Assembly (NCBI RefSeq): GCF_000330505.1
Contig: NW_004443556.1
Location: 121,553 to 185,552, forward strand
DNA length: 64,000 nucleotides
Direction: 5' to 3'
From: Entamoeba invadens IP1
Lineage: Eukaryota > Evosea > Mastigamoebida > Endamoebidae
In this document: positions 2,521 through 60,312 of the stretch, piece by piece
Position numbering within the stretch: position 1 is the stretch's first letter
How the letters are laid out: every line of letters begins with the position of its first letter
Notes under the pieces: generated by a model
Databases searched by the model: none
What the model saw: only the letters and a program-made list of their open reading frames with translations
What the model was told of the DNA's origin: nothing
Translations under genes and position numbers: made by a program

Positions 2521-3315
2521 ATGGAGTCTCGAAAAGGCAACACCAGTAGGAGTAAGAAAGCGTTCAACACAAGTGCATTGGTCTACTGCTCTCTTGAGAT
2601 GGGCGCACACATCAAATTCATACGTTCCAAAATCTCACAGAACTCTTTGAAAGTCTTGAGAGGAGAAGAAGTCAAATGGGACTTTAAAAGCACCACAGAC
2701 AACACACGCCATTTTATGGAGCAGTCGGACATCTTTTGTGATAAAATGACTGTTTTAGTTGAAACTGCACGAATAAGAAAGGTAACTGAGTTACTCATTG
2801 ATTGGAAAACACTGAATTCCGTTGAACCAAAGTCTTCCATGAGTAGTGTTGATGCCACACAACGATGGAAAGACTTGGACTATAATCAAGACTGTAGGAA
2901 CAAAGAAGCCTGCTTTGTGAATTACTTGTCATACAATTTACTCCAATTTGGATACTCCTTTTCTATTAATATCTCTCGTATTAAACCCTCAAAGAAAACA
3001 GCCAATTTCTTTATCTGGTCAGAGATATATACCCCAGACAACACAGTCATTGGCGTCAACAAAACCCCCCTCTTGGTGTCATTCATCCACCACGTCGAAA
3101 GTTTGTTAAACAGATCGAAGACGTCATGGATCGGATCGGATGACATTGCGCATAACTTCGCAAAGAACTCGCTTGTCGCGTCTACTGAGGCGGAAGATTC
3201 CCCTCAGACCCCAAGCGCGTTTAAACCACTCACAGACTCTCACTACTGTGTACTGCAAAACTTTGCTTTCACACAAACCCACCCATTTATACTCAACACA
3301 TTCGCATGTTATTGA
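2521..3315 (+). CDS. Hypothetical protein, 264 aa
   Basis: A single-exon ATG-started reading frame with GC content and codon use like neighbouring real genes. I do not recognise a family. There is no signal peptide or obvious membrane segment; the N-terminus is basic and serine-rich (MESRKGNTSRSKK), a central stretch around residues 135-200 is aromatic and hydrophobic with alternating patterning suggestive of a beta-rich fold, and the tail is Thr/Pro-rich. It is followed after only 86 bp by the VPS13-like gene on the same strand. A GTTTGTAA motif just upstream of the ATG looks like a splice donor but the distance to the next AG is only about 21 nt, so I did not extend the gene upstream. Confidence 0.6.
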   Translation: MESRKGNTSRSKKAFNTSALVYCSLEMGAHIKFIRSKISQNSLKVLRGEEVKWDFKSTTDNTRHFMEQSDIFCDKMTVLVETARIRKVTELLIDWKTLNSVEPKSSMSSVDATQRWKDLDYNQDCRNKEACFVNYLSYNLLQFGYSFSINISRIKPSKKTANFFIWSEIYTPDNTVIGVNKTPLLVSFIHHVESLLNRSKTSWIGSDDIAHNFAKNSLVASTEAEDSPQTPSAFKPLTDSHYCVLQNFAFTQTHPFILNTFACY

Positions 3316-3401: not shown

Positions 3402-6400
3402 ATGGGGTGGCTTGCAAGAATTATCATCTGGACTGCGTCTTTTTTCTTTCCACTTTGGATTCTTATAAAGTCCACTTGGGAAGGGCACTCCCTCGTGATT
3501 GGAAAGACGTCGTGTGCCGCTGCTTTTAAAGTGTCGAATATAACATTTAAAATTCATAACAACAGTCTTTTAATTAAAGCAAAGAAAACGAAAGGGTTTG
3601 TCCACTTTGAGGAATTGAAAAAAATTTTTCAAAATGCGATGAATATACAAACAAAAACAGCACCAAATTATTTACAAATGACTTTAAAAATGATCATCTC
3701 AAAAGTTTTTAATTTGGTTGTGGCACTTTTGAATATCAAGACGATTAAATTGGAATGTAAACAAATTACTGTGGTGTTTGGACTCATCACAGTCGAAGAA
3801 AATGACTTTCAAGTGTCTTATTTAATGGACACAAACACCATTGAACTGACTCAAAATAACACAACCATTAAATGTTTAAACAAGGTATTCACAATACAAA
3901 CAAAAGGACTTTTTATCACTGATAAGTTGTTAAAGATTGTCGAGTGTAAATTTATTTGTCGAGACGTCTCTGTGCTTCTTTCATTGGACATCAATTTTCC
4001 ATCACAAACGCAGCATAATATTGTTTTAAGAATTCCTCCAATCTTGCTCTTTAAAAATACAACTGAAAGTGTTGGGTCAATCGACTTAGGAAACCAAATT
4101 GAAATTTATGGCAACAAAATTACATTCAATAAAATTAACACTTTTGTATCCGAAAATTTTCTTGTTATGCTCCAATTGGTGGACCTTTTGGTGTTTAAAA
4201 AAGTTGTTGGAGAAAAGCCGAAGTTATCAGTACGTGGGTCGTGTAATCAATTTGACATCTTTGTTACTGTAAATAAAGAAAAACTTTTGTTGTCATTACT
4301 AACAATCGACTTTTCTTTTGAAAGGGGTTTAATAAATTACACCACAAAAAGTGTTCAATTGTTGACTCAAAATGTCGTACTTCAAAATGTTGTTGCAATT
4401 TTGGACAACTTCTCTTTGTCACAAACAAACACAACAACATCCATCACAACACAAAAAGTGACAGTGACAATTAACAAAATGACTGTACTCACTGCTTTAA
4501 ATATCATAAACACTTGTTCTCAATATAAATCACAAATTGTAGATGTCAAAGAATTGTTTATTTGTGACTCTTTTGGAGAAGAAAATTTACTGTTTTTCGT
4601 TGTCTCTATTGCTGAAATTGAAATAACCTTTTCAGACAATAAAACTGTGAACCACAAAATAACAGTTTTCATATCAAAACCAATGTATTCACAAAATAGT
4701 GTATCATGTGACTCAAGTCACATTTTATTTAATACTACAAAATGTGCTGTGATTACTTCAATTACACTATTTGATATGTTCACAACTCCACATTTGGAGA
4801 TACGAACGTGCCAATTACTTTCACACCCAACAGACTTCATTCGAATGAAAAACGTGTTAAGTGACATTTGTTCAGTATTGTCAAATGAATTATGTCAAAT
4901 AATAAATGTTACTCCATACACTCTATGTATCACCACTTCAAAACAAATTATTGTACTCCCCAACTCGATTTCTGATGATGAAATAATTTTTGGTGAGTCG
5001 TTTAATGTGACTATTAACAATGAAAGCACTTTAATACACTTTCCGTACAACAAAATTGTATTTAAAAATTCCAGCCTTGATGTTAAATTGCGAAAGAACA
5101 AAATTACATTTTGTGGCGGTTTTATTATCAAAAACAGTTTGACCAAGTCTGTTGTTTTAACCTTTCCAAAAACGTCAAAATGTCTGTCACCTTCTGAAAA
5201 GTACTGTTTTGACGTTATAAATAAAAAAGAAAGACTTTCACTAATTTACAATGAACTTGCCTTGTCGTATCAATCAATGGAAACTATGGAAGACATTTTC
5301 TGTGATGAACAACACTCCCTTGTGATTAAGAAGAGTGGCCCAAATGTTGTGAAACTGAAACCATCGCGAAGAATAAGTAATGGACTTCCTTTCATTATAC
5401 ACGTAAATGCTATTAACAACACGCGGACAAATATCTTGTTGTATCCCAAAGAGAATATCTGTGTGTTTCCATACAATTCTGTGATATACACACTGTCGTT
5501 CATTGTGAATAAAGTGTGTTACAACAACATTAAAATTGGACAAGATTTTGTATTGCTAGATCAGCAGTGTATAGTGCACATTCACAATTGTATTAATACT
5601 ATCGTCTTCTGTGCAGATTTGGTCATCACTAACACAACTGATTTAAAACTCTTTTACTTCCCAGAGAAATTTGTTTTCTTGAAGGGAGGACGACCAATAC
5701 ATCCAGTTGTTATAACAGACAACACAAAAGAATTGTTTATTGGTGTTTCGACGTTAAGTGTCACACAAATAGATAATGACATGGAGCTTTATAATGACAC
5801 CAAAGTGTACAAACTGACATCACGAAAAAGAGTTTATTATGAAGAAAAGAGTAATGATATTATGTCTTATCTTATTGAAATCACACACAAATACGTGATC
5901 AAAAATAGCTCTGAAAACACAGAAATCGTTGCGATACATTTCAGTGGAGAAACGCTCTTTTTAAATAGTCGAGAGAGTAAACCTCTTGTTTTCGACCAGA
6001 ATAGAACATCCCAAATTAAGTTTGGTGTCTCGGGAGGTAACAACGACTTTGAAATATGTTGGAGTTCATTGTTCGATGTTGAAAAGGTCTTTCAAAATGC
6101 GGCGATGATCGAAATAAATAAAACTGATAAGACGATATCCACACAATTGGAAGATGGAATTTTGGTACTCAAAGTGACTCATAAAACTATGATGGAAGTC
6201 GTCAATACAACATCTTTGGTATTTTCATTTGAACAATCCGGACAACCACAAAAGTTTTTGATACTCCCAAACCAAAAACTTCCTTTAAATTTGCCCGACC
6301 CATTTGGGAAAAAAGCACTCAAATTGGAGTACAACAACGAAGAATGTGAAATTCCTTTAACAAAAAATGGGAATTACAAAATAGAAGGAAGTCCAGTGGT

Positions 6401-7094
6401 CTATCTCTCGGTGACTACTTTGCCACTCGTCATCGTGTTTGCAGAGACAAAAACGAAAAACCCAAACACAAAACTCTTTTCCTTGAAAACGCTTGACGTG
6501 CTCTTCAAGCCAAGTGTACACGTATCAGACATTTCTATTACAAAAGAAGAACTCCCGAAATTTTGCGCCAAACACAACCAACTCACAAAATCATATTCTA
6601 AGCGTCACTCTCAAAAATTATTTATTTACAAATGCTCAGCAGAAAAAGTGAATGTCGAAGTGGATACCATTGATACACTCACAACTTTTAATAAAGTCCA
6701 GGCAAGTTGCATCGTTCAAGATTGGACTGTTCTTTCCATCGAAATCGTCCCTCCACCTTTGGCTCTGCAAATAACACAAAAATTAAAAAATGTTATATAT
6801 AACAAAAATGACACGTTCGACGTAAAGAGTGTGATAGCCATTCCACCTCTTGTAATGACTCCATTCACTCTTTCTGTGTGTTTGAAAGACTTTTTCGACT
6901 TGAGGGGCATCCAGTTTTCCTTCAGTTCGTTCAGTAGCGATAAGTGTTCTTTGCCTCACTTTTTAGTGACGGTCTTCCAGTTCTACGAGTCGCAAGCTTA
7001 TGACCAAATACCACGCGTTGCACGGTCTGCTCTTGTGGCCAACTTCCCAGTCGACGCTCTTCTGAAGTTGTTATACTCATTGTCTGCACACTAA
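3402..7094 (+). CDS. Short VPS13-like / bridge-like lipid-transfer protein with six VAB-type modules (1230 aa)
   Basis: An N-terminal hydrophobic segment (about residues 5-24) is followed by ~470 residues of long alternating beta-strand pattern. From about residue 498 there are six modules, beginning near 498, 574, 665, 740, 830 and 932, each centred on an Asn-x-Ser/Thr motif (for example INVTPYTL, ITNTTDLKLF, VVNTTSLVF) followed by hydrophobic strands. Six repeats with an invariant Asn is the known layout of the VPS13 adaptor-binding (VAB) domain. The C-terminus (QDWTVLSIEIVPPPLALQ, then a terminal helical stretch) resembles the end of VPS13. VPS13 proteins carry lipids between organelles at contact sites. 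It is far shorter than the usual ~3000 residues, lacks a clear chorein N-terminus, and instead begins with a membrane segment as in Hobbit/Csf1-type relatives. The assignment rests on pattern only. Confidence 0.5.
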   Translation: MGWLARIIIWTASFFFPLWILIKSTWEGHSLVIGKTSCAAAFKVSNITFKIHNNSLLIKAKKTKGFVHFEELKKIFQNAMNIQTKTAPNYLQMTLKMIISKVFNLVVALLNIKTIKLECKQITVVFGLITVEENDFQVSYLMDTNTIELTQNNTTIKCLNKVFTIQTKGLFITDKLLKIVECKFICRDVSVLLSLDINFPSQTQHNIVLRIPPILLFKNTTESVGSIDLGNQIEIYGNKITFNKINTFVSENFLVMLQLVDLLVFKKVVGEKPKLSVRGSCNQFDIFVTVNKEKLLLSLLTIDFSFERGLINYTTKSVQLLTQNVVLQNVVAILDNFSLSQTNTTTSITTQKVTVTINKMTVLTALNIINTCSQYKSQIVDVKELFICDSFGEENLLFFVVSIAEIEITFSDNKTVNHKITVFISKPMYSQNSVSCDSSHILFNTTKCAVITSITLFDMFTTPHLEIRTCQLLSHPTDFIRMKNVLSDICSVLSNELCQIINVTPYTLCITTSKQIIVLPNSISDDEIIFGESFNVTINNESTLIHFPYNKIVFKNSSLDVKLRKNKITFCGGFIIKNSLTKSVVLTFPKTSKCLSPSEKYCFDVINKKERLSLIYNELALSYQSMETMEDIFCDEQHSLVIKKSGPNVVKLKPSRRISNGLPFIIHVNAINNTRTNILLYPKENICVFPYNSVIYTLSFIVNKVCYNNIKIGQDFVLLDQQCIVHIHNCINTIVFCADLVITNTTDLKLFYFPEKFVFLKGGRPIHPVVITDNTKELFIGVSTLSVTQIDNDMELYNDTKVYKLTSRKRVYYEEKSNDIMSYLIEITHKYVIKNSSENTEIVAIHFSGETLFLNSRESKPLVFDQNRTSQIKFGVSGGNNDFEICWSSLFDVEKVFQNAAMIEINKTDKTISTQLEDGILVLKVTHKTMMEVVNTTSLVFSFEQSGQPQKFLILPNQKLPLNLPDPFGKKALKLEYNNEECEIPLTKNGNYKIEGSPVVYLSVTTLPLVIVFAETKTKNPNTKLFSLKTLDVLFKPSVHVSDISITKEELPKFCAKHNQLTKSYSKRHSQKLFIYKCSAEKVNVEVDTIDTLTTFNKVQASCIVQDWTVLSIEIVPPPLALQITQKLKNVIYNKNDTFDVKSVIAIPPLVMTPFTLSVCLKDFFDLRGIQFSFSSFSSDKCSLPHFLVTVFQFYESQAYDQIPRVARSALVANFPVDALLKLLYSLSAH

Positions 7095-7255: not shown

Positions 7256-8836
7256 ATGAGCTATATGTTGAATCCGACTATCATTCTTTTGAAGGACGGG
7301 ACCGACACAAGTCAGGGGAAGGGGCAGATCATTAGTAACATCAACGCGTGTCAGGCCATAGCGGACATTGTGAAGACAACACTTGGCCCACGTGGGATGG
7401 ACAAACTGTTTTTGGACAATGGGAAGATCTTAGTGACTAATGACGGTGCCACTGTTATGAAAAACTTGGATATCGTCCATCCGGCTGCTCAAGCACTTGT
7501 TGATATAGCAATGGCACAAGACTCTGAAGTGGGCGATGGGACTACAACCGTCGTAGTCTTAGCTGGGGAATTACTCTCGCAAGCTAAGAAGTTGATAGAA
7601 GATGGGATTCACTCGCAGGTCATCATTAAAGGGTTTCGAATGGCTGAGAAGAAAGCGAAGGAGACCATCAATGCGATGAAAATATCATTTGAGAAGAAAG
7701 ACCTGATCTCATACCTCCGCAATTGCGCTAAGACCTCGATGCAGAGCAAGTTGATTGCGATGCAACGGGAACACTTCACCGATATTGTTGTCCAGAGTGT
7801 GATGCAGTTGGACGACACCTTAGACATCGACATGATTGGGATCAAGAAAGAACAAGGCGGGTCGTTGGAAGACTCGTTCACATTAGAAGGCGTTGCGTTC
7901 AAGAAGTGTTTCTCATACGCAGGGTTCGAACAACAACCAAAGCTCTTTGTCAACCCTAAGATCATCTGCTTAAACATCGAACTTGAGCTGAAAAAGGAGA
8001 AGGACAATGCTGAAGTCCGTATCGATGACCCCACGCAGTACCAGAAAATTGTCGACGCCGAGTGGCAAATCCTCTACACGAAACTTGAAAACATCGTGAA
8101 GTCTGGAGCGAACATTGTCCTCTCCAAATTACCAATTGGAGACTTGGCAACACAATACTTTGCCGATCGTAAGATCTTCTGTGCTGGAAGAGTCGAAGAG
8201 CCGGACTTGAAACGCGTCTGTTTGGCGACGGGAGCGAAGATCCAAACGACGGTGAGTGAACTTGACGACACGGTGTTGGGGACTTGTGGGAAGTTTGAAG
8301 AGCAACAGATAGGGAAAGAGCGCTACAACTTGTTCAGCGGCTGCACGAAAGCGAAGAGCTCGACGATCATCTTGAGAGGCGGAGGAGAACATTTTATTGA
8401 TGAAGCTGAGCGATCGCTCCACGACGCGATTATGATAGTTCGACGAGCTATGAAACACAAAGAAATGGTCTGTGGAGGTGGAGCTGTTGAGATGGAAATA
8501 GCAAAGGAATTGAAGGAGTATGCGATGACTATTGAAGGGAAATTGCAATACGTTGTTTTGGGATATGCAAAGGCATTTGAAGGCATCCCACGCCAACTTG
8601 CGGACAACGCCGGGTTTGATCCCACGAACATCTTGAATTTACTCCGAAAGAAACACTCGGAAGGAGGGAAGTGGTTTGGCGTCGATGTCAATAACGAAAA
8701 TATCCTCGACATGATGGAAACTCAAGTGTGGGAACCGGCTCTTATCAAATTGAATGCAGTGGCTGCCGCTACTGAAGCCGCTGGGTTGATCATTTCGATC
8801 GACGAGACTATTAAGGCACCCGAGCACAAAAATTAA
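7256..8836 (+). CDS. CCT7: T-complex protein 1 subunit eta (CCT7)
   Basis: A 526-residue group II chaperonin subunit of full family length. It shows the nucleotide-binding signatures [22 protein letters not shown] and [16 protein letters not shown] in the N-terminal equatorial domain, and the C-terminal [13 protein letters not shown] and [10 protein letters not shown] signatures. The opening [22 protein letters not shown] is specific to the eta subunit (human CCT7 starts with nearly the same words). The product is one of eight subunits of the cytosolic TRiC/CCT ring that folds actin and tubulin with ATP. The ATG is at 7256; a second Met three codons later is possible. No intron is needed. GC content is high for the window, as expected of a highly expressed gene. 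Confidence 0.95.
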
Positions 8837-14242: not shown

Positions 14243-17200
14243 ATGTTCCTTTTTTTGTTTGTCGCTGCGGCTTTGTCTGCAGAATGTACAGAAACCCAGT
14301 ACTATGACCAAACAGAAAATCAGTGCAAAAATTGTGTTGCCAATTGTACCACTTGCTTCTCTGCAACAAAGTGCAAAACTTGTACTTCTGGACACTACAT
14401 TAACCCGGATTACCAATGTGTGAATAGACCAACGATAGCCAACTGTGCCACTTGGGATAACTTATATTGTACCAGTTGTGCAGCTCAATATTACTTGAAA
14501 GATCAGAAATGTGAATCATGTACTTCTAATTGTAATTACTGTAACTCCCAAGAGTGCTTCCAGTGTACATCTGGATACACATTAGTTAAGAATGGGAAGA
14601 GTTGCGTTGACTGTACAAAATCTGAAAATGACGCTGATTGTGGTCGTTGCCCACTCAACCAATATTTTGATACCAAACTCTTTACATGTGCTGCTTGCAA
14701 AACTAATTGTATTCGATGCTCCACAGCCACAAACTGTTTTATGTGTGGTGGAGACTATGCTCTTGAAGACCCGACGAATGCCGACTCCAACTGTTCTACA
14801 ATAGCGAATTGTCAAGCTGGTCATGTCTACGGTGACCACTGTGAATTGTGTTTAACTGGCTATTTCTTGAATAATGGTAAATGCACCGCTTGCAGTGTCG
14901 GGTGCAGTCGGTGCATAGATGAGAAGACGTGTATTGAGTGTTCTTCTTCCTTCAAATTACTTTCTGGGGCATGCGTCACTTCGATTGATCATTGTAATCG
15001 AGCAAATAACATTCAAGGCTGTTTAGAATGCAATGAAGGGTATTACTTGACGACGGGAAGCGTATGCACACAATGCAGTACACAGTGTTCGTCGTGTTTA
15101 AATAGTACGTACTGCTTCAGATGCTCTTCCACACACTACTTTGGTGAGAAAGAAGGCGAGTGCATTCGGATGTCAAGTAGTTGTAAAGTGACGGACCAAT
15201 ATGGATGCTTAGAGTGTGAGTATGATAAGAAATTGAGTGATGAATGTGAAAAGGACTTTGCAACAGATAAGACTATTAACTGCACAACACAATCATATGG
15301 TTACTTCTTATCAGTCACTAAACCAGAAGATGGATCTGCTCTTGTGTACGATAAAGTGTGTTCAAAATGTAATCCACACTGCAAAATCTGCGAGTATAAC
15401 TCAACTTGGTGCTCAGCTTGTAACGATGGATATGCACTTAAAGAAGATGCAGAAGCAAAAGACGCGTATAACAAGTTGACTGGAGAAACTGCGACAATTT
15501 ATGTCTGTGAAGTGAAGCCTGCAGAGTGTAGTCGAACGGGTTTGTTGGTATAACTACTTTTATATTATAATAATACTATAGTATTGGATTATACTATTAT
15601 AATATGATAAATTATACTATTAATACTATTATAATTAACACGAAGAAATGGGGTACTGTGTAGAGTGTATTGACACTTACTTCTTGAGTGGAGTGAAGTG
15701 TATTCAATGCGACAAGTCATGTGGATCGTGCACATCACCGGAGTTTTGTCAAACGTGTAACTCAGCGACGGATACTGAAGGGCATAACATCTATTGGAGA
15801 CCAAAGAGTTTCTCTGACAAAGAAGGAGAAGCTAAAGGGAAGTGCTTCTTAATAAATGAGACTGCTTCTGAATATGGATTGGACAAATGTGCGCATTACC
15901 CCACAACCTCTGGGTGTTCCAATTGCAATGCCGGGTATTACATCCACGAGAATTATTGTCGCAAATGCCCTGAACGATGTGGTGAATGTAAAGAAGTCGG
16001 AGACCCCACTGAGACATCAGATGGGATCATTTGCACGTCATGTTACAACAACACGTATATCTCCACTGAAACTAATGCGACGTGTTTGGCGTGTAGTACA
16101 ATAGATAAGTGTGTGACGTGTGAAAGCACTGGATGTCATGTCTGTGAAGACTCTTATAGTCCTTCATTGGATCGATTGAAGTGTACTAAAGTCAATTTGG
16201 CCCTCATTCTGCCATTGTCTATTGCTGGTGGATTAATTCTGATTGCCGTCATATTAGTCTTCATCTTCTTGTTATGGAGAAGACGCCGAAGAACAGAGAA
16301 AGAGCGCGAGACTGAGATTCGACCGTTTAGAGTCTCTTCCGACTTGGAACTTGCACTTCTCTCCGCAGACAATGAAAAGTTCCCGATGAAGATGTCGAAT
16401 TGGACGCTTGATTTTGGGCTGAAGTCTTCTAAAGCGATAGTCGACACGGCGTACACGCAGAAATTGGATATCATGAACTCGAGTTCGAAGACGTATTACT
16501 TTGAATTCTTAATCAACCCGTCCCACTGTTACGAATTAGAAATCAACCCTATTCGACAGACGTTGAAGCCAGGATACGCTGTCTCTGTTGAATTCAAAAT
16601 TACGATGATATGCACGGCAGTCGTCTCGCACGAAATTGGTATTGTCGCGATGGATGTCGACGACAACGAGAAGGAGACTGCGAAGCTGAAATTAGTGATA
16701 GAATCGGATCTGTCCACTAAATTGGACCACACCGAGTTGAAACCGATTATGCCGCCAATTGGCGAAGGCGCGTTTGGTCTTGTCTTCAGAGGGACTTACA
16801 GAGGGACTGAAGTTGCTATTAAGAAGATGAAAGCAAGGAATTTGACTGACGAGCAACAAAAGGAGTTCACACATGAAGTGACTATGTTGTCCCAATTAAG
16901 ACATCAAACCACAGTCAATTTAATTGGAGCGGTTTATACGGAAGGAGAAATAGCGATTGTCACCGAGTTTGCCGAGTTTGGGTCACTGAGTAAGATATGG
17001 GGAAAGAACCCGATTGGATACGACTTGAAAGTGAAAATTATGGACGACTTGGCGGTCGCATTGCAATTTTTACATCATAATCAAATCATCCACAGAGATA
17101 TTAAAGGAGAGAACGTCTTGATATACTCGCTGAACCCGCATTCAAGCGTTTGCGGAAAACTGACCGACTTTGGGACATGCAGAAATGTCTCTGAAAGAGC

Positions 17201-17717
17201 ATTAAGTACAAAACCATTGTCGACAGGTATTGGAACACCAACATATATGTCCCCGGAATCACTCCAAGGTACGTCGGATTATAGCTACCCAGTAGATATA
17301 TACGCGTATGGAATGGTGTTGTATGAGACGTATACAGAGAAACAGGGATACGAAAACGACGAGAGATTTAACCAACCGTGGATGATCCCACAATTCGTTA
17401 TCGAAGGAAAACGTCTCGAGAGAACAGAAGGGATGCCAGACAACTACTGGAACTTGCTCAACAAGTGTTGGGCCCAAGAGGCGGAGAAGAGACCAAACAT
17501 GTCCGAAATTTTGGAGACCATTTCGAGCTGGGGGCTGGATATCACACACGTCGGAGGTGAAATCGCACTCAAGAAAGTCGACATGGACAAGGCAGAGGGA
17601 CATGTCGATGATAAGGAAGAGAAGAAGGAAACTCCAATGTCAGAAGAACCAAAGAAGGTCGAAGAGAGCAAGGCCCAGAAGCTTGACTTGTCTTCGCCAG
17701 AGTCGTCGAGTCAATAA
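14243..17717 (+). CDS. Transmembrane receptor-like protein kinase (Entamoeba TMK family), one intron
   Basis: Exon 1 14243-15539, intron 15540-15645 (GTTTGTTGG...CACGAAG, 106 nt), exon 2 15646-17717; phase 1, giving 1122 residues. Splicing joins SRT-E-MGYC and restores a CxxC repeat interrupted by a stop. Layout: signal peptide (1-13), ~600-residue CXXC-rich furin/EGF-like ectodomain, membrane helix about 617-643 followed by RRRRR, an MSP-like beta domain about 678-788, and a kinase domain about 803-1065. The kinase has GEGAFG, VAIKKM (Lys ~825), HRDIKGEN (Asp ~917), DFG (~940) and an APE-like SPE, so it should be active; HRDIKGEN suggests Ser/Thr (TKL-like) activity. An acidic/lysine-rich tail follows. 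TMKs are surface sensors in Entamoeba; the ligand cannot be read from sequence. Confidence 0.9.
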
Positions 17718-55917: not shown

Positions 55918-58900
55918 ATGTCAATACGACGTGAATTAGGGAAGTCACAGAGCGTGATCTTATTTAAACGTTCCACCTCTGTGCGAATAAATGCGTATAA
56001 AATGTTTTTGAATTACATCAACAATGGGCAATATCAAGTGACGAACTTTTTTAATGATCTTACGAATGGATTGTCCTTGATTCTTTTTATGGAAACACTA
56101 TCACGGAATCATATGAAGCGATATAACAAGACACCAAAGTGTTTGATGCATTACAAAGACAATTTAGAAGGAGTCTTGAAATTTATGCGAGAGAATGGGA
56201 TTTTAGACAATATAGTCTCACAAGACATATTCGATAAAAATGAGAAGACCATTTTGATGGTCTTTAAGTCGATCATCAAACGATTTTGGTTCAAAGGTGT
56301 CGAATTGAAACCAAAGAACTTTAATGTGTGGCTTCAACGTGTTTTTCATAAGGAAGTCAATGCCTCAAATGAATGGAATACTCTTGTCTTTTGGGAAACT
56401 ATAATGAACTATTTGAAACCTAATTCAATTAATAAAGAAAATTTGCATGAAAATTTGAAGGAGAATTTGAATTATATTTTGAACGTCGCAAATAAAGAAC
56501 TCAAAATCCCTCTTATTATTGATGGACAAGTAATTGTCGATGGAATTATAGAAGAAGATATTATTGCTCTTTATTTAGTCTTTTTTGCATTGGCAGATAA
56601 CACTTTGTCCGAAGATGACGGAATTTTATTTTTGAGAAAAGATCCCCCTCAATTTAGTACCTTTGACGCAGACCGTGGATCGGAGACGCCAAAACGAAAA
56701 AGTGTCTCTTTGAGTAAAAGCACAATCGTCTCCTCTTCAAAATCAACAAGTTCTTTGGGACTCACTGCTGAGGTGATTGAAAAAAGCGAAAAAAAAACAG
56801 AAACGCCAAAGAAAGAGGTAAAAAACACTGAGATGGAGGAACTTAAGAAAAAACTCAAAGAAAGTGAGGAAAGGTGCAAAAAACTCGAAAACGAAAAAGA
56901 AAAAACGGAAAAAGAAAGAAAAAATACAGAAGAACAGAAAAATAAGGAAAAAGAAGATAACTCAAAAAATCTGGAGAAGATCAAAAAACTGGAGGAACTA
57001 GTCAAGGACTTGAACAAACAAAATGAGGAAATTGAAAAAGTGCGAGCTGAAAAACAGAAAGTGGAAAAGGAACTTGAAAATATAAATACAGAGCTGAATG
57101 ATGTGAAGGAAAAAATGAAAGACATTGAACAAAATAAAAAAATTGAGATTGAGCAATGTCGGAAAGAGAAAGACGATTTATCAAAACAAGTTAAAGAAAA
57201 TTCGACTAAAATTGCAGAACTTGAAAATGTGAAAACCGAAACGGAAAAAGAACTAAAAAATAAAAATAAAGAACTGAATGATGTTAATGATAAAATAAAA
57301 GATATGAATGAAAATCATGAAAATGAAATAGAGAAGAACAATAAAGAGAAAGAAGATGCACAAAAGAAAGTCGAAGAATTGACAACAAAGAATGCAGAAC
57401 TCGAGAAATTTAAAATGAAAAATGAACAATTGGAAAAGGAACTCAATGATAAAACAATACAACTTAATGACGTGAACGATAAAATGAAAGATTTTGAACA
57501 AAATAAAAAAACCGAGATTGAGAAGTGCCAGAACGAAAACAACGACCTTGAAAAGAAATTGGCTGAACAAGCTTCTAAAATTATTGAAATGGAAAAGCAA
57601 TATAAAGAAACGATGGAAAAGAACCAAACAACTCAAGCAGCCCGAGAAAAGGAATTTTTGGAACAAAACGAAAAGGTTAAAAAACTCGAAGAGGAAAATT
57701 CTCAAAACCAAAATGTTTTTGACAAAAAAACTCAAGAACTTGAAAATGTGATTCAAATCAAGGAAGAGGAAAAGCAAAAACTGAAGAACGACTGTGAAAC
57801 TTTGCAAATACAACTAACTGAAGAACAAAAACTTCAAAAATCTGGAAATGATGAGATTGAGAAATTGAAAAACGAAAAAGACGATTTATCGAAACAAGTT
57901 AAAGAAGTGATAGCAAAGAATGCAGAACTTGAAAATAAAAATACAGAGCTGAATGATGTGAACGATAAAATAAAAGATGTTGAACAAAAACTAAAAACCG
58001 AGATTGAGAAGTTGAGAAATGAAAAAGAAGATACAGAAAAGAAAGTCGAAGAGATGACAACAAAGAATGCAGAACTCGAAAACATGAAAACCGAAACGGA
58101 AAAAGAACTAAAAAATAAAAATAAAGAATTGAATGATGTGAATGATAAAATGAAAGAAATGAATGAAAATCACAAAAACGAGATTGAGCAATGTCAGAAA
58201 ATGAACGAAGAATTGACATTCAAGATTGAAGAAAGCGAAAAAGAGCGCAATGAAAAGGACAGAAAAAGAGAAGAGGAGATTGCGACATATAAAAAGGAGG
58301 AATCTGAACTGAGAAAACAAGTTGAAGAAGCCAAAAGTGTGAATCAGAGTTTAGTGGAACAGAATGAGTTGCTCAAAATCCAAATGAAAGAGCTTCAGAA
58401 GGCTAAAGAGGATATGGACTTGAAGATGATACAGAACGAAAATGTGTATAAAGGAGAGATCGACGGGTTGAATAAAGAACTTGAGGACTTGAATACGAAC
58501 TATCAGATGTTGATGCAAGACAACATGAGAGGGAACACTGACTTAGAGAACAAAATCAATGAAATGAATGAACTTGTAAAAACGAATGAAGAGAAGAACA
58601 AAGTGAAGGATGAGGAAATTAAAAAACAGAAAGAAGACAACAAAAAAATGCAAACCAACGAAGAAGAGATGAATAAGAAGATGAAAGAGCTTGTTGAGAA
58701 AATGAATAAAAACGAAGACAAGACAAAGGAGATGGAAAGTCAAGTGAAAGAGAAGGAACTTGCTGCGAAAATACTTAATGAACAAACACAGGAAATGCAA
58801 AATCAGATATCTGAGACGGTAAGACAATTAGAAAATATCAAGAGTAAGGCATTGGAGGAGAGCGAAAGGCTTGAAAATGCAGTTGTTGATGCAAAATTGA

Positions 58901-60312
58901 TGATGAGAGCAAACATTGAACAAAACAACACCAAAAACGAAGAGAAGATGAAAGAAAAGGAACACGAGATTGATGAATTGAGAAAAGAAATGGAAACTCG
59001 AGAAAAAGAGAACACCGAGTTGAGTGCGAATTTGGAAAAAATGAAAACACAGATGGGAGAAAATACGAAAAAGAGCAACAAAATAGCGGAGGGTCTGGAA
59101 CTTAAAATAGAGGATTTGGAGAATGCTCTCAAACAGAGTGAAAAAACGATCAAGCAGAAGAACGAAACCATTGAAAAATTAAAGGAAAGTGTGGAAAAGA
59201 TGGAAACTGAAGTCAAAACAATGAAAGATGCGGAGTTGTTACTGAAAGCCGAAATTGACAAACGCGAACAAGAAAATGCTACGTTACAAGGCGAGAATGA
59301 ACGCATCGAAAAGGATACAAAGGTATTGGAAGGCAAGATATGTTTGTTGGAGAAAGAAAATGAAAATCTAAAAACAGAGAGCGAGAGCATCAGAGAGAAA
59401 CAACTGGAAAGCGAAAGACAGAGCGAAAAAGAAGTTTTGGAAATGAAACAACAAATAGAACAGATGGAAAAAGAAAACCAAACACAGAAAGACACAATCG
59501 CTTTGTTGGAAGTTGAGAAAACACACAACTTGAAAATAGTCGAAGAAGCGAACGCAAGAGAAAAGGAATTGAAAATACAAATTGAAGAAACTGAAAAACT
59601 CAAAACAGAAGCTAACGATAAAGCAGGTGAAGAGACAAGGAAACGAAAAGAAGCTGAAAAACAAAACGAAATATTAAAACTACTTGTGGATGAAAAAGAG
59701 AAGCGGATCAACGAAAAGGACGAAGAAATTGAACGTGCAAAAACCGAACAACGCCAAAAGGAGGAGTTGCACAAACAAATTGAAGAACAGAACAATAAGG
59801 AAATAACAAGGCTGCAAGGCGAGTTTGCTGATCTCCAGCAATTGAGGAACGCTGAAATAGTTCAAAACGAAGAAAAACGCAGAGTTGATGAAAAAGAAGG
59901 AGAAAATGAAAATAATGATGAAAAAGAAAAAGAAAAGAAGAGAATTGAGGAGTTTGACAAGCGCATGGAACGTTTAGAGAAGATGATTTCTGATTTTGAG
60001 AAAGTCAATGAGAAAGCGAAAGGAGAGATGGAGGGGAGTTGCAACAAGTCGAAAGATGAGATCATTGCGAGTGTTGGAGAGGCCGAAAAGCGAATGAAGG
60101 AACTCAAGGATTTGATGAAAGAACGCAGTAAAGTGGAAATGAGAAAAAGCACAAAGGGAGAAGACAAAGAGAAGAAGGAAGAGAAAACGCAGATGGAAGA
60201 GTTGATGACAACCCACAAAAAGGAGATGGATAGTGTTTACAGCAGTACTAAAACAGCAATGCTTGCTGCTGTTGGTGTTGCTATTGTATCGCTTGCTATC
60301 CATTTTTTCTGA
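55918..60312 (+). CDS. Tail-anchored CH-domain long coiled-coil protein, 1464 aa
   Basis: Residues ~20-125 and ~130-230 resemble a tandem pair of calponin-homology domains (ITNFFNDLTNGLSLILFMETL-like first helix C, then KPKNFNVWLQRVF...WNTLVFWETIMNYL), the actin-binding module of alpha-actinin, filamin and nesprin. A Ser/Lys linker leads to ~1100 residues of continuous coiled coil (Lys/Glu/Asn heptads), part of which is an internal ~60-residue repeat. The protein ends in a hydrophobic stretch (AMLAAVGVAIVSLAIHFF) with no residues after it: a classic tail anchor for ER, nuclear envelope or Golgi. This is a nesprin- or giantin-like layout that could tie actin to an organelle. The CH assignment is moderate; coiled coil and tail anchor are plain in the sequence. 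Confidence 0.8.
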   Translation: MSIRRELGKSQSVILFKRSTSVRINAYKMFLNYINNGQYQVTNFFNDLTNGLSLILFMETLSRNHMKRYNKTPKCLMHYKDNLEGVLKFMRENGILDNIVSQDIFDKNEKTILMVFKSIIKRFWFKGVELKPKNFNVWLQRVFHKEVNASNEWNTLVFWETIMNYLKPNSINKENLHENLKENLNYILNVANKELKIPLIIDGQVIVDGIIEEDIIALYLVFFALADNTLSEDDGILFLRKDPPQFSTFDADRGSETPKRKSVSLSKSTIVSSSKSTSSLGLTAEVIEKSEKKTETPKKEVKNTEMEELKKKLKESEERCKKLENEKEKTEKERKNTEEQKNKEKEDNSKNLEKIKKLEELVKDLNKQNEEIEKVRAEKQKVEKELENINTELNDVKEKMKDIEQNKKIEIEQCRKEKDDLSKQVKENSTKIAELENVKTETEKELKNKNKELNDVNDKIKDMNENHENEIEKNNKEKEDAQKKVEELTTKNAELEKFKMKNEQLEKELNDKTIQLNDVNDKMKDFEQNKKTEIEKCQNENNDLEKKLAEQASKIIEMEKQYKETMEKNQTTQAAREKEFLEQNEKVKKLEEENSQNQNVFDKKTQELENVIQIKEEEKQKLKNDCETLQIQLTEEQKLQKSGNDEIEKLKNEKDDLSKQVKEVIAKNAELENKNTELNDVNDKIKDVEQKLKTEIEKLRNEKEDTEKKVEEMTTKNAELENMKTETEKELKNKNKELNDVNDKMKEMNENHKNEIEQCQKMNEELTFKIEESEKERNEKDRKREEEIATYKKEESELRKQVEEAKSVNQSLVEQNELLKIQMKELQKAKEDMDLKMIQNENVYKGEIDGLNKELEDLNTNYQMLMQDNMRGNTDLENKINEMNELVKTNEEKNKVKDEEIKKQKEDNKKMQTNEEEMNKKMKELVEKMNKNEDKTKEMESQVKEKELAAKILNEQTQEMQNQISETVRQLENIKSKALEESERLENAVVDAKLMMRANIEQNNTKNEEKMKEKEHEIDELRKEMETREKENTELSANLEKMKTQMGENTKKSNKIAEGLELKIEDLENALKQSEKTIKQKNETIEKLKESVEKMETEVKTMKDAELLLKAEIDKREQENATLQGENERIEKDTKVLEGKICLLEKENENLKTESESIREKQLESERQSEKEVLEMKQQIEQMEKENQTQKDTIALLEVEKTHNLKIVEEANAREKELKIQIEETEKLKTEANDKAGEETRKRKEAEKQNEILKLLVDEKEKRINEKDEEIERAKTEQRQKEELHKQIEEQNNKEITRLQGEFADLQQLRNAEIVQNEEKRRVDEKEGENENNDEKEKEKKRIEEFDKRMERLEKMISDFEKVNEKAKGEMEGSCNKSKDEIIASVGEAEKRMKELKDLMKERSKVEMRKSTKGEDKEKKEEKTQMEELMTTHKKEMDSVYSSTKTAMLAAVGVAIVSLAIHFF
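57091..58200 (+). repeat. Internal ~180-bp coding repeats in the coiled-coil gene
   Basis: The ELNDVNDKMKD...E..KKTEIE... segment recurs with a spacing of 60, 63 and 60 residues (starts near 57091, 57271, 57460, 57946, 58126), with high nucleotide as well as protein similarity, including a nearly identical block at 57217-57300 and 58081-58150. Confidence 0.8.

Follow-up and report, generated by a model that had tools for sequence, protein, structure and literature searches.

A short, highly divergent Entamoeba invadens protein with six probable VAB modules of the VPS13 type

We analysed a stretch of 64,000 nucleotides from Entamoeba invadens IP1 (the window; contig C49, positions 121553-185552), which contains a gene for a protein of 1230 amino acids. 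This protein carries six tandem modules that are very probably homologous to the VAB domain of VPS13. The single unbroken frame on the forward strand at 3402-7094, described in an earlier note that was made from the sequence alone, was confirmed; it opens just 4 codons upstream of its ATG and the gene has a G+C content of 34%. Judged by its sequence, the protein is extremely diverged. No relative was found by whole-protein Pfam searches, by sequence against the PDB or in a search of 5.8 billion proteins, and a protein search of its own genome (35 Mb, 233 contigs) returned only the self-match. The features of the gene are as follows.

3402-7094, forward strand: whole gene, an uninterrupted frame of 1230 amino acids that requires no intron
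3420-3467, forward strand: candidate membrane helix, residues 7-22 (IIIWTASFFFPLWILI), from hydrophobicity, unexceptional compared with shuffles
3489-4856, forward strand: N-terminal region, residues 30-485, of no recognised family, where most of any RBG groove would lie
4857-5084, forward strand: VAB-type module 1, residues about 486-561, Asn 502, from the chained profile
5085-5330, forward strand: VAB-type module 2, residues about 562-643, Asn 578, from the chained profile and a common MAFFT column
5331-5582, forward strand: VAB-type module 3, residues about 644-727, Asn 660 (NGLP), with the top single-module score (17.5)
5583-5855, forward strand: VAB-type module 4, residues about 728-818, Asn 744, from the chained profile, with a MAFFT column only in larger sets
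5856-6155, forward strand: VAB-type module 5, residues about 819-918, Asn 835, from the chained profile, MAFFT and a Pfam piece match
6156-6416, forward strand: VAB-type module 6, residues about 919-1005, Asn 935, from a local hhalign match, the best-modelled part
6417-7091, forward strand: C-terminal region, residues 1006-1230, in the position of RBG11/12 in VPS13 and not recognisable as such

VPS13 proteins (VPS13A-D and yeast Vps13; VAB PF25036, 7u8t) likewise have six tandem modules, in each of which strand 1 ends with an Asn. In the crystal structure (PMC8978259), each module is a nine-stranded sandwich whose fold is stabilised by the conserved Asn that closes strand 1, and the PxP peptide of an adaptor sits between modules 5 and 6. 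According to PMC7613979, the VAB is specific to VPS13 and is inserted between RBG10 and RBG11; its repeats have served for definitive identification of a protein as VPS13.

The modules were located with a chained VAB profile, a dynamic-programming search whose profile was built without the window protein; a single-module hidden Markov model was weak. The profile comprised 53 modules of 10 relatives, namely six proteins of this genome, E. histolytica P0005, and P0006, P0009 and P0010. P0004, P0007 and P0008 were excluded because they nearly duplicate P0001 and P0009. P0001 is a VPS13 of this genome, and over residues 1750-2720 it is 100% identical to the Entamoeba invadens IP1 protein annotated 'tipc, putative'. 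The module Asn was located at 53 of the 60 possible positions, and the seven unlocated ones were omitted from the profiles (VAB1 of P0005, P0006, c151 and c30, VAB2 of c30, VAB3 of c136 and VAB6 of P0010). The chained profile selects exactly Asn 502, 578, 660, 744, 835 and 935, with spacings of 76, 82, 84, 91 and 100 residues. Its score of 48.4 lies above those of 500 dipeptide shuffles (at most 17.4) and 500 block shuffles (at most 33.2), and another version, which found the same six, scored 39.2 compared with a mean of -17.7 and a maximum of 14.0 in 1000 shuffles. The six modules spaced by about 75-100 residues that the earlier note had described, and had proposed to check for in residues 498-1010, were thus recovered by a profile that excludes this protein.

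Comparisons with hhalign point the same way. The local match aligned residues 917-978, module 6, to VAB6 with an E-value of 7.5e-4, a score (41.4) that none of 200 shuffles equalled (at most 27.9), and the global score was 36.9 compared with at most 17.3 in 200 shuffles. RBG-only controls reached at most 23.6 locally and 6.7 globally. Module 3 was the second match, in register, with an E-value of 0.13 that is by itself not significant. In a MAFFT alignment of 11 slices, the Asn of modules 2-6 share the columns of those of the relatives, with the exception of c216 at module 3, and Asn 502 of module 1 falls in no VAB1 Asn column of any relative in this 11-sequence alignment. The module 3 Asn is the first residue of an N-x-LP in six of the nine relatives in which the VAB3 Asn was located, as it is in the window protein (NGLP). 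Pfam VPS13_VAB (PF25036) matched one of the six pieces, in register and below the cut-off: positions 403-508 of the 570 in the profile cover residues 820-925 (E 0.0013, 17.7 bits, cut-off 22.6).

A structure model of modules 5 and 6 has moderate confidence and is partly circular, as its alignment was built on VAB rows. Because these rows were chosen around the located Asn, the invariance of the Asn within them is not independent evidence. The best part is module 6, where the ten-residue means across model residues 121-180 lie at 70-90. In module 5 the Asn, model residue 24, comes after strand 20-23, and in module 6 it is residue 124, the last of strand 120-124. The Foldseek comparison with VPS13 called for by the earlier note was made with this two-module model: among 350,542 PDB chains the best match was 7u8t, the Vps13 VAB with the Mcp1 peptide (E 2.3e-4, probability 1.00). 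The VPS13 VAB plan suggested in that note is therefore backed by the chained profile, hhalign, a weak in-register Pfam piece and the best match among solved structures. Two other modelling attempts were set aside: alignment rows tiled from overlapping pairs of modules produced a staircase, and non-overlapping pairs took their place, and an AlphaFold model of residues 480-1230 from 4 alignment rows was unusable (mean predicted local distance difference test score, pLDDT, 31.4).

The regions on either side of the modules gave no such match to VPS13. Consistent with the earlier note, which saw no plain chorein N-terminus, Pfam detected no chorein match (PF12624) with E-values up to 1 for the whole protein or 10 in pieces, although extreme divergence is possible; the VPS13_N genome search was likewise silent at the window locus, though it matched 7 other contigs. 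For RBG11/12, residues 1005-1230 scored 13.1 in hhalign compared with a shuffle mean of 13.9, and 89 of 150 shuffles equalled this, a result that extreme divergence could also give. By comparison, held-out C-termini of five relatives (C132, C216, C136, C30 and C151) scored 63.5-154.9 against the profile of the others, with 63.5, 82.5 and 90.2 for the three short E. invadens VAB proteins among them. The Q-x-D motif that is invariant in six aligned E. invadens relatives is missing from residues 1005-1230. ATG2_C and PH (Pfam VPS13_C, PF25037) gave no match in the window protein, whole or in pieces, and in the genome search matched only C216 and C136. As chorein, RBG11/12 and ATG2_C/PH were each looked for and not detected, the protein is, as far as its sequence goes, related to VPS13 by its VAB and yet not classed here as VPS13 proper.

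The profile test of N-terminal residues 30-495 had low power: the score of 15.0 was equalled by 23 of 60 shuffles, and held-out pieces of canonical VPS13s reached only 18.6-25.7. Since even genuine VPS13s score poorly in this test, no inference can be drawn from its failure. Several C-terminal candidates were rejected. Three by-eye alignments of the last ~90 residues to VPS13 C-termini were mutually exclusive and were not supported by hhalign (13.1 local, 0.7 global). A restricted global test scored 10.0, a value reached by two of 200 shuffles and by none of 190 other stretches of the protein, but gave a different register again, and the alignments were dropped. Statistics of beta-alternation were also dropped, since known RBG and other regions could not be told apart by them, and the flanks are therefore not claimed to be beta. 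The shortened lipid-transfer bridge or new RBG branch envisaged in the earlier note is not established, as residues 1005-1230 score at shuffle level whereas the C-termini of the other short relatives match VPS13. That the window protein is a lipid bridge is possible, and we lean slightly against it.

Our favoured explanation, to which we give an even chance, is a highly divergent, shortened VPS13 relative with a VAB core, a membrane helix, a role at contact sites and at best a short groove. By analogy with its family, the VAB core (residues about 486-1005), which keeps the VPS13 module order, would bind short adaptor peptides, for which the site in fungi is between modules 5 and 6. Like BLTP1 and BLTP2, the protein might be anchored in a membrane by its N-terminal hydrophobic helix, and a second membrane would be chosen by the VAB via its adaptors, so that the protein may act at a contact site. 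From the VAB we infer an adaptor-recruited contact-site protein. The flanks (residues 30-485 and 1006-1230) could form a short groove at most, perhaps 5 to 7 RBG domains or 10-14 nm, assuming ~2 nm per RBG domain from the statement in PMC7613979 that 38 domains would exceed 75 nm. Membrane insertion and lipid transfer by the protein are guesses.

The likeness to VPS13 extends to long sequence on either side of the VAB. However, five VPS13 proteins are 2909-3798 amino acids long (P0001, P0005, P0006, P0009, P0010) compared with 1230 here, and the module spacing is 84-120 residues in P0001 and P0009 compared with 76-100. PMC7613979 reports that Hobbit and Tweek begin with membrane helices; an N-terminal membrane helix in BLTP1/Tweek/Csf1 and BLTP2/Hobbit invites comparison with the candidate helix of the window protein. 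Unlike these proteins, the window protein has a VAB, called VPS13-specific in the same paper, and Tweek/Csf1 members are far longer (2695-5093 amino acids). The window protein gave no Pfam match to BLTP1 or BLTP2, whole or in pieces, and no profile comparison with them was made. A precedent, described in PMC7613979, is Arabidopsis VPS13X, a shortened VPS13 recognised through its VAB, which yet has nine RBG domains.

Other VAB genes were sought in this genome. Pfam profiles matched VPS13_VAB at C151, C83 and C132, VPS13_N at C134, C30, C151, C83, C112, C158 and C72, and VPS13_C at C216 and C136 (C136 slightly below the cut-off of one scan). VAB modules were located in seven genes, those of the window, C132, C216, C136, C151, C83 and C30, the last three of which also have VPS13_N; this count excludes C134, C112, C158 and C72, VPS13_N loci that were not read through to a possible VAB. 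As the VPS13_VAB search missed C30, C216, C136 and the window gene, more VAB genes may exist. At C112 (L016/L017), the VPS13_N matches lie within a frame reported as open over 14,651 amino acids. Four of the seven located VAB genes are short and have no detectable chorein N-terminus, namely the window gene and the following three.

L010 2607-7001: short VAB gene C132, 1422 amino acids, VPS13-type C-terminus, no detectable chorein
L036 670-5934: short VAB gene C216, 1717 amino acids, VPS13-type C-terminus, no detectable chorein
L037 4516-9393: short VAB gene C136, 1626 amino acids, VPS13-type C-terminus, no detectable chorein

Six module Asn were located in C132, six in C216 and five in C136. 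Like the window protein, all three have an early VAB1 Asn (433, 436 and 440 residues past the first Met in C132, C216 and C136, compared with 502) and no VPS13_N match, although small upstream exons remain possible. The start of C136 lies at most 0.3 kb from a divergent neighbouring frame, the 7.6 kb upstream of C216 contain one other frame of at least 110 amino acids, which lies at their far end and on the other strand, and the closest frame of at least 250 amino acids upstream of C132 is at ~0.8 kb. They differ from the window protein in their VPS13-matching C-termini, and none starts with an equally hydrophobic stretch.

A tentative reading, which we think rather doubtful, is that Entamoeba dismantled VPS13, leaving short chorein-less VAB proteins beside full-length VPS13s, with the window protein as a free-standing, membrane-anchored VAB receptor or tether that has lost both ends of the bridge and is anchored by its membrane helix instead. 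According to PMC10711303, Vps13 was present in all archamoebae examined (42 cases). Among the titles and opening abstract lines of the open-licence papers listed, none dealt with a VAB protein that is membrane-anchored or lacks a chorein, and we know of no VAB outside a lipid bridge. A VAB protein without recognisable bridge ends, in one genome with three short VAB proteins that have no detectable chorein end, makes it possible to ask whether the adaptor-binding half of VPS13 can work without the chorein end and how short a lipid bridge can be.

The strongest alternative, still an unlikely one, uncouples the VAB from any groove: as a receptor or tether anchored in a membrane, the protein would compete with the adaptors of full-length VPS13s in the same cell or recruit them. 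It would account for a VAB that is recognised next to C-terminal RBG domains that are not, where the three short relatives score far above shuffle level, and for the missing chorein and VPS13_C matches. However, it leaves ~700 flanking residues unexplained, a strongly diverged groove would test alike, and the N-terminal test that could have revealed one barely detects canonical pieces.

The N-terminus of the window protein is hydrophobic, with 16 uncharged residues at 7-22 (Kyte-Doolittle 1.92 over 19), and this part of the earlier note's N-terminal membrane segment stands. Its membrane nature is not established, as 272 of 2000 shuffles of this protein, which is hydrophobic overall, had an equally strong 17-residue stretch within the first 40 residues and two longer uncharged runs, of 19 residues each, start at 996 and 1143; on sequence grounds a membrane segment is plausible. 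The protein has 22 sequons compared with 14.7 expected from composition, so that a sequon is not diagnostic. The earlier note had centred every module on N-x-S/T: the Asn held, whereas the sequon is present at only four of the six, with N578 (NSL) and N660 (NGL) outside any. By the crystal structure and the two-module model, the module Asn is a structural mark, at which the sequon is incidental.

A secreted or surface protein unrelated to VPS13, with six immunoglobulin (Ig)-like beta-sandwich repeats, a signal peptide and N-x-S/T glycosylation sites, is very unlikely. It would fit the hydrophobic N-terminus and the surplus of sequons. In VIA-align, Ig-like folds fall inside the first-row tie, and absence of a family from its list was not counted as evidence. 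The two core Asn outside a sequon, the VPS13-like module order, N-x-LP in module 3 and the Foldseek gap between the VAB (2.3e-4) and the first non-VAB chain (0.066) speak against such a protein. A decaying VPS13 gene copy, open by chance and functionless, would fit the very high divergence and the lack of an orthologue in database searches and is highly improbable given 1230 stop-free codons at 34% G+C and six modules retained in order.

The sole database copy found is a 605-amino-acid entry (P0012), identical to residues 626-1230; the database model thus omits the first half and starts at Met 626, an internal Met. Two protein searches for orthologues returned this entry only; their word-based method overlooks relatives with low identity, so they do not establish that other Entamoeba lack the gene. 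The gene is flanked by an unassigned frame of 264 amino acids at 2521-3315 and, at 7256-8836, by a CCT chaperonin gene, whose ATG lies 161 bases beyond the end of the VAB-gene frame at 7094.

Elsewhere in the window, positions 1-705 form a perfect 67-base inverted repeat, with arms at 1-67 and 639-705 and 571 bases between them. Its first 38 bases have 16 copies in the genome, 8 per direction (11 exact, 5 with one mismatch), and 14 of these make up 7 facing pairs at a spacing of about 0.62-0.67 kb. This looks like a recently active family of miniature inverted-repeat transposable elements (MITEs). By eye, an inverted-repeat element with arms that contain GTCGCCGA also lies upstream of the C132 VAB gene (L033, about 1098-1510). 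A strongly purine-rich gene at 55918-60312 encodes 1464 amino acids, by eye a long, coiled-coil-like protein rich in K, E and N, which ends in a hydrophobic C-terminus and is possibly tail-anchored. Two adjoining frames at 14243-17717 contain, by eye, Cys-rich repeats followed by a hydrophobic segment and a kinase-like stretch, and look like one transmembrane kinase gene split by frame or intron.
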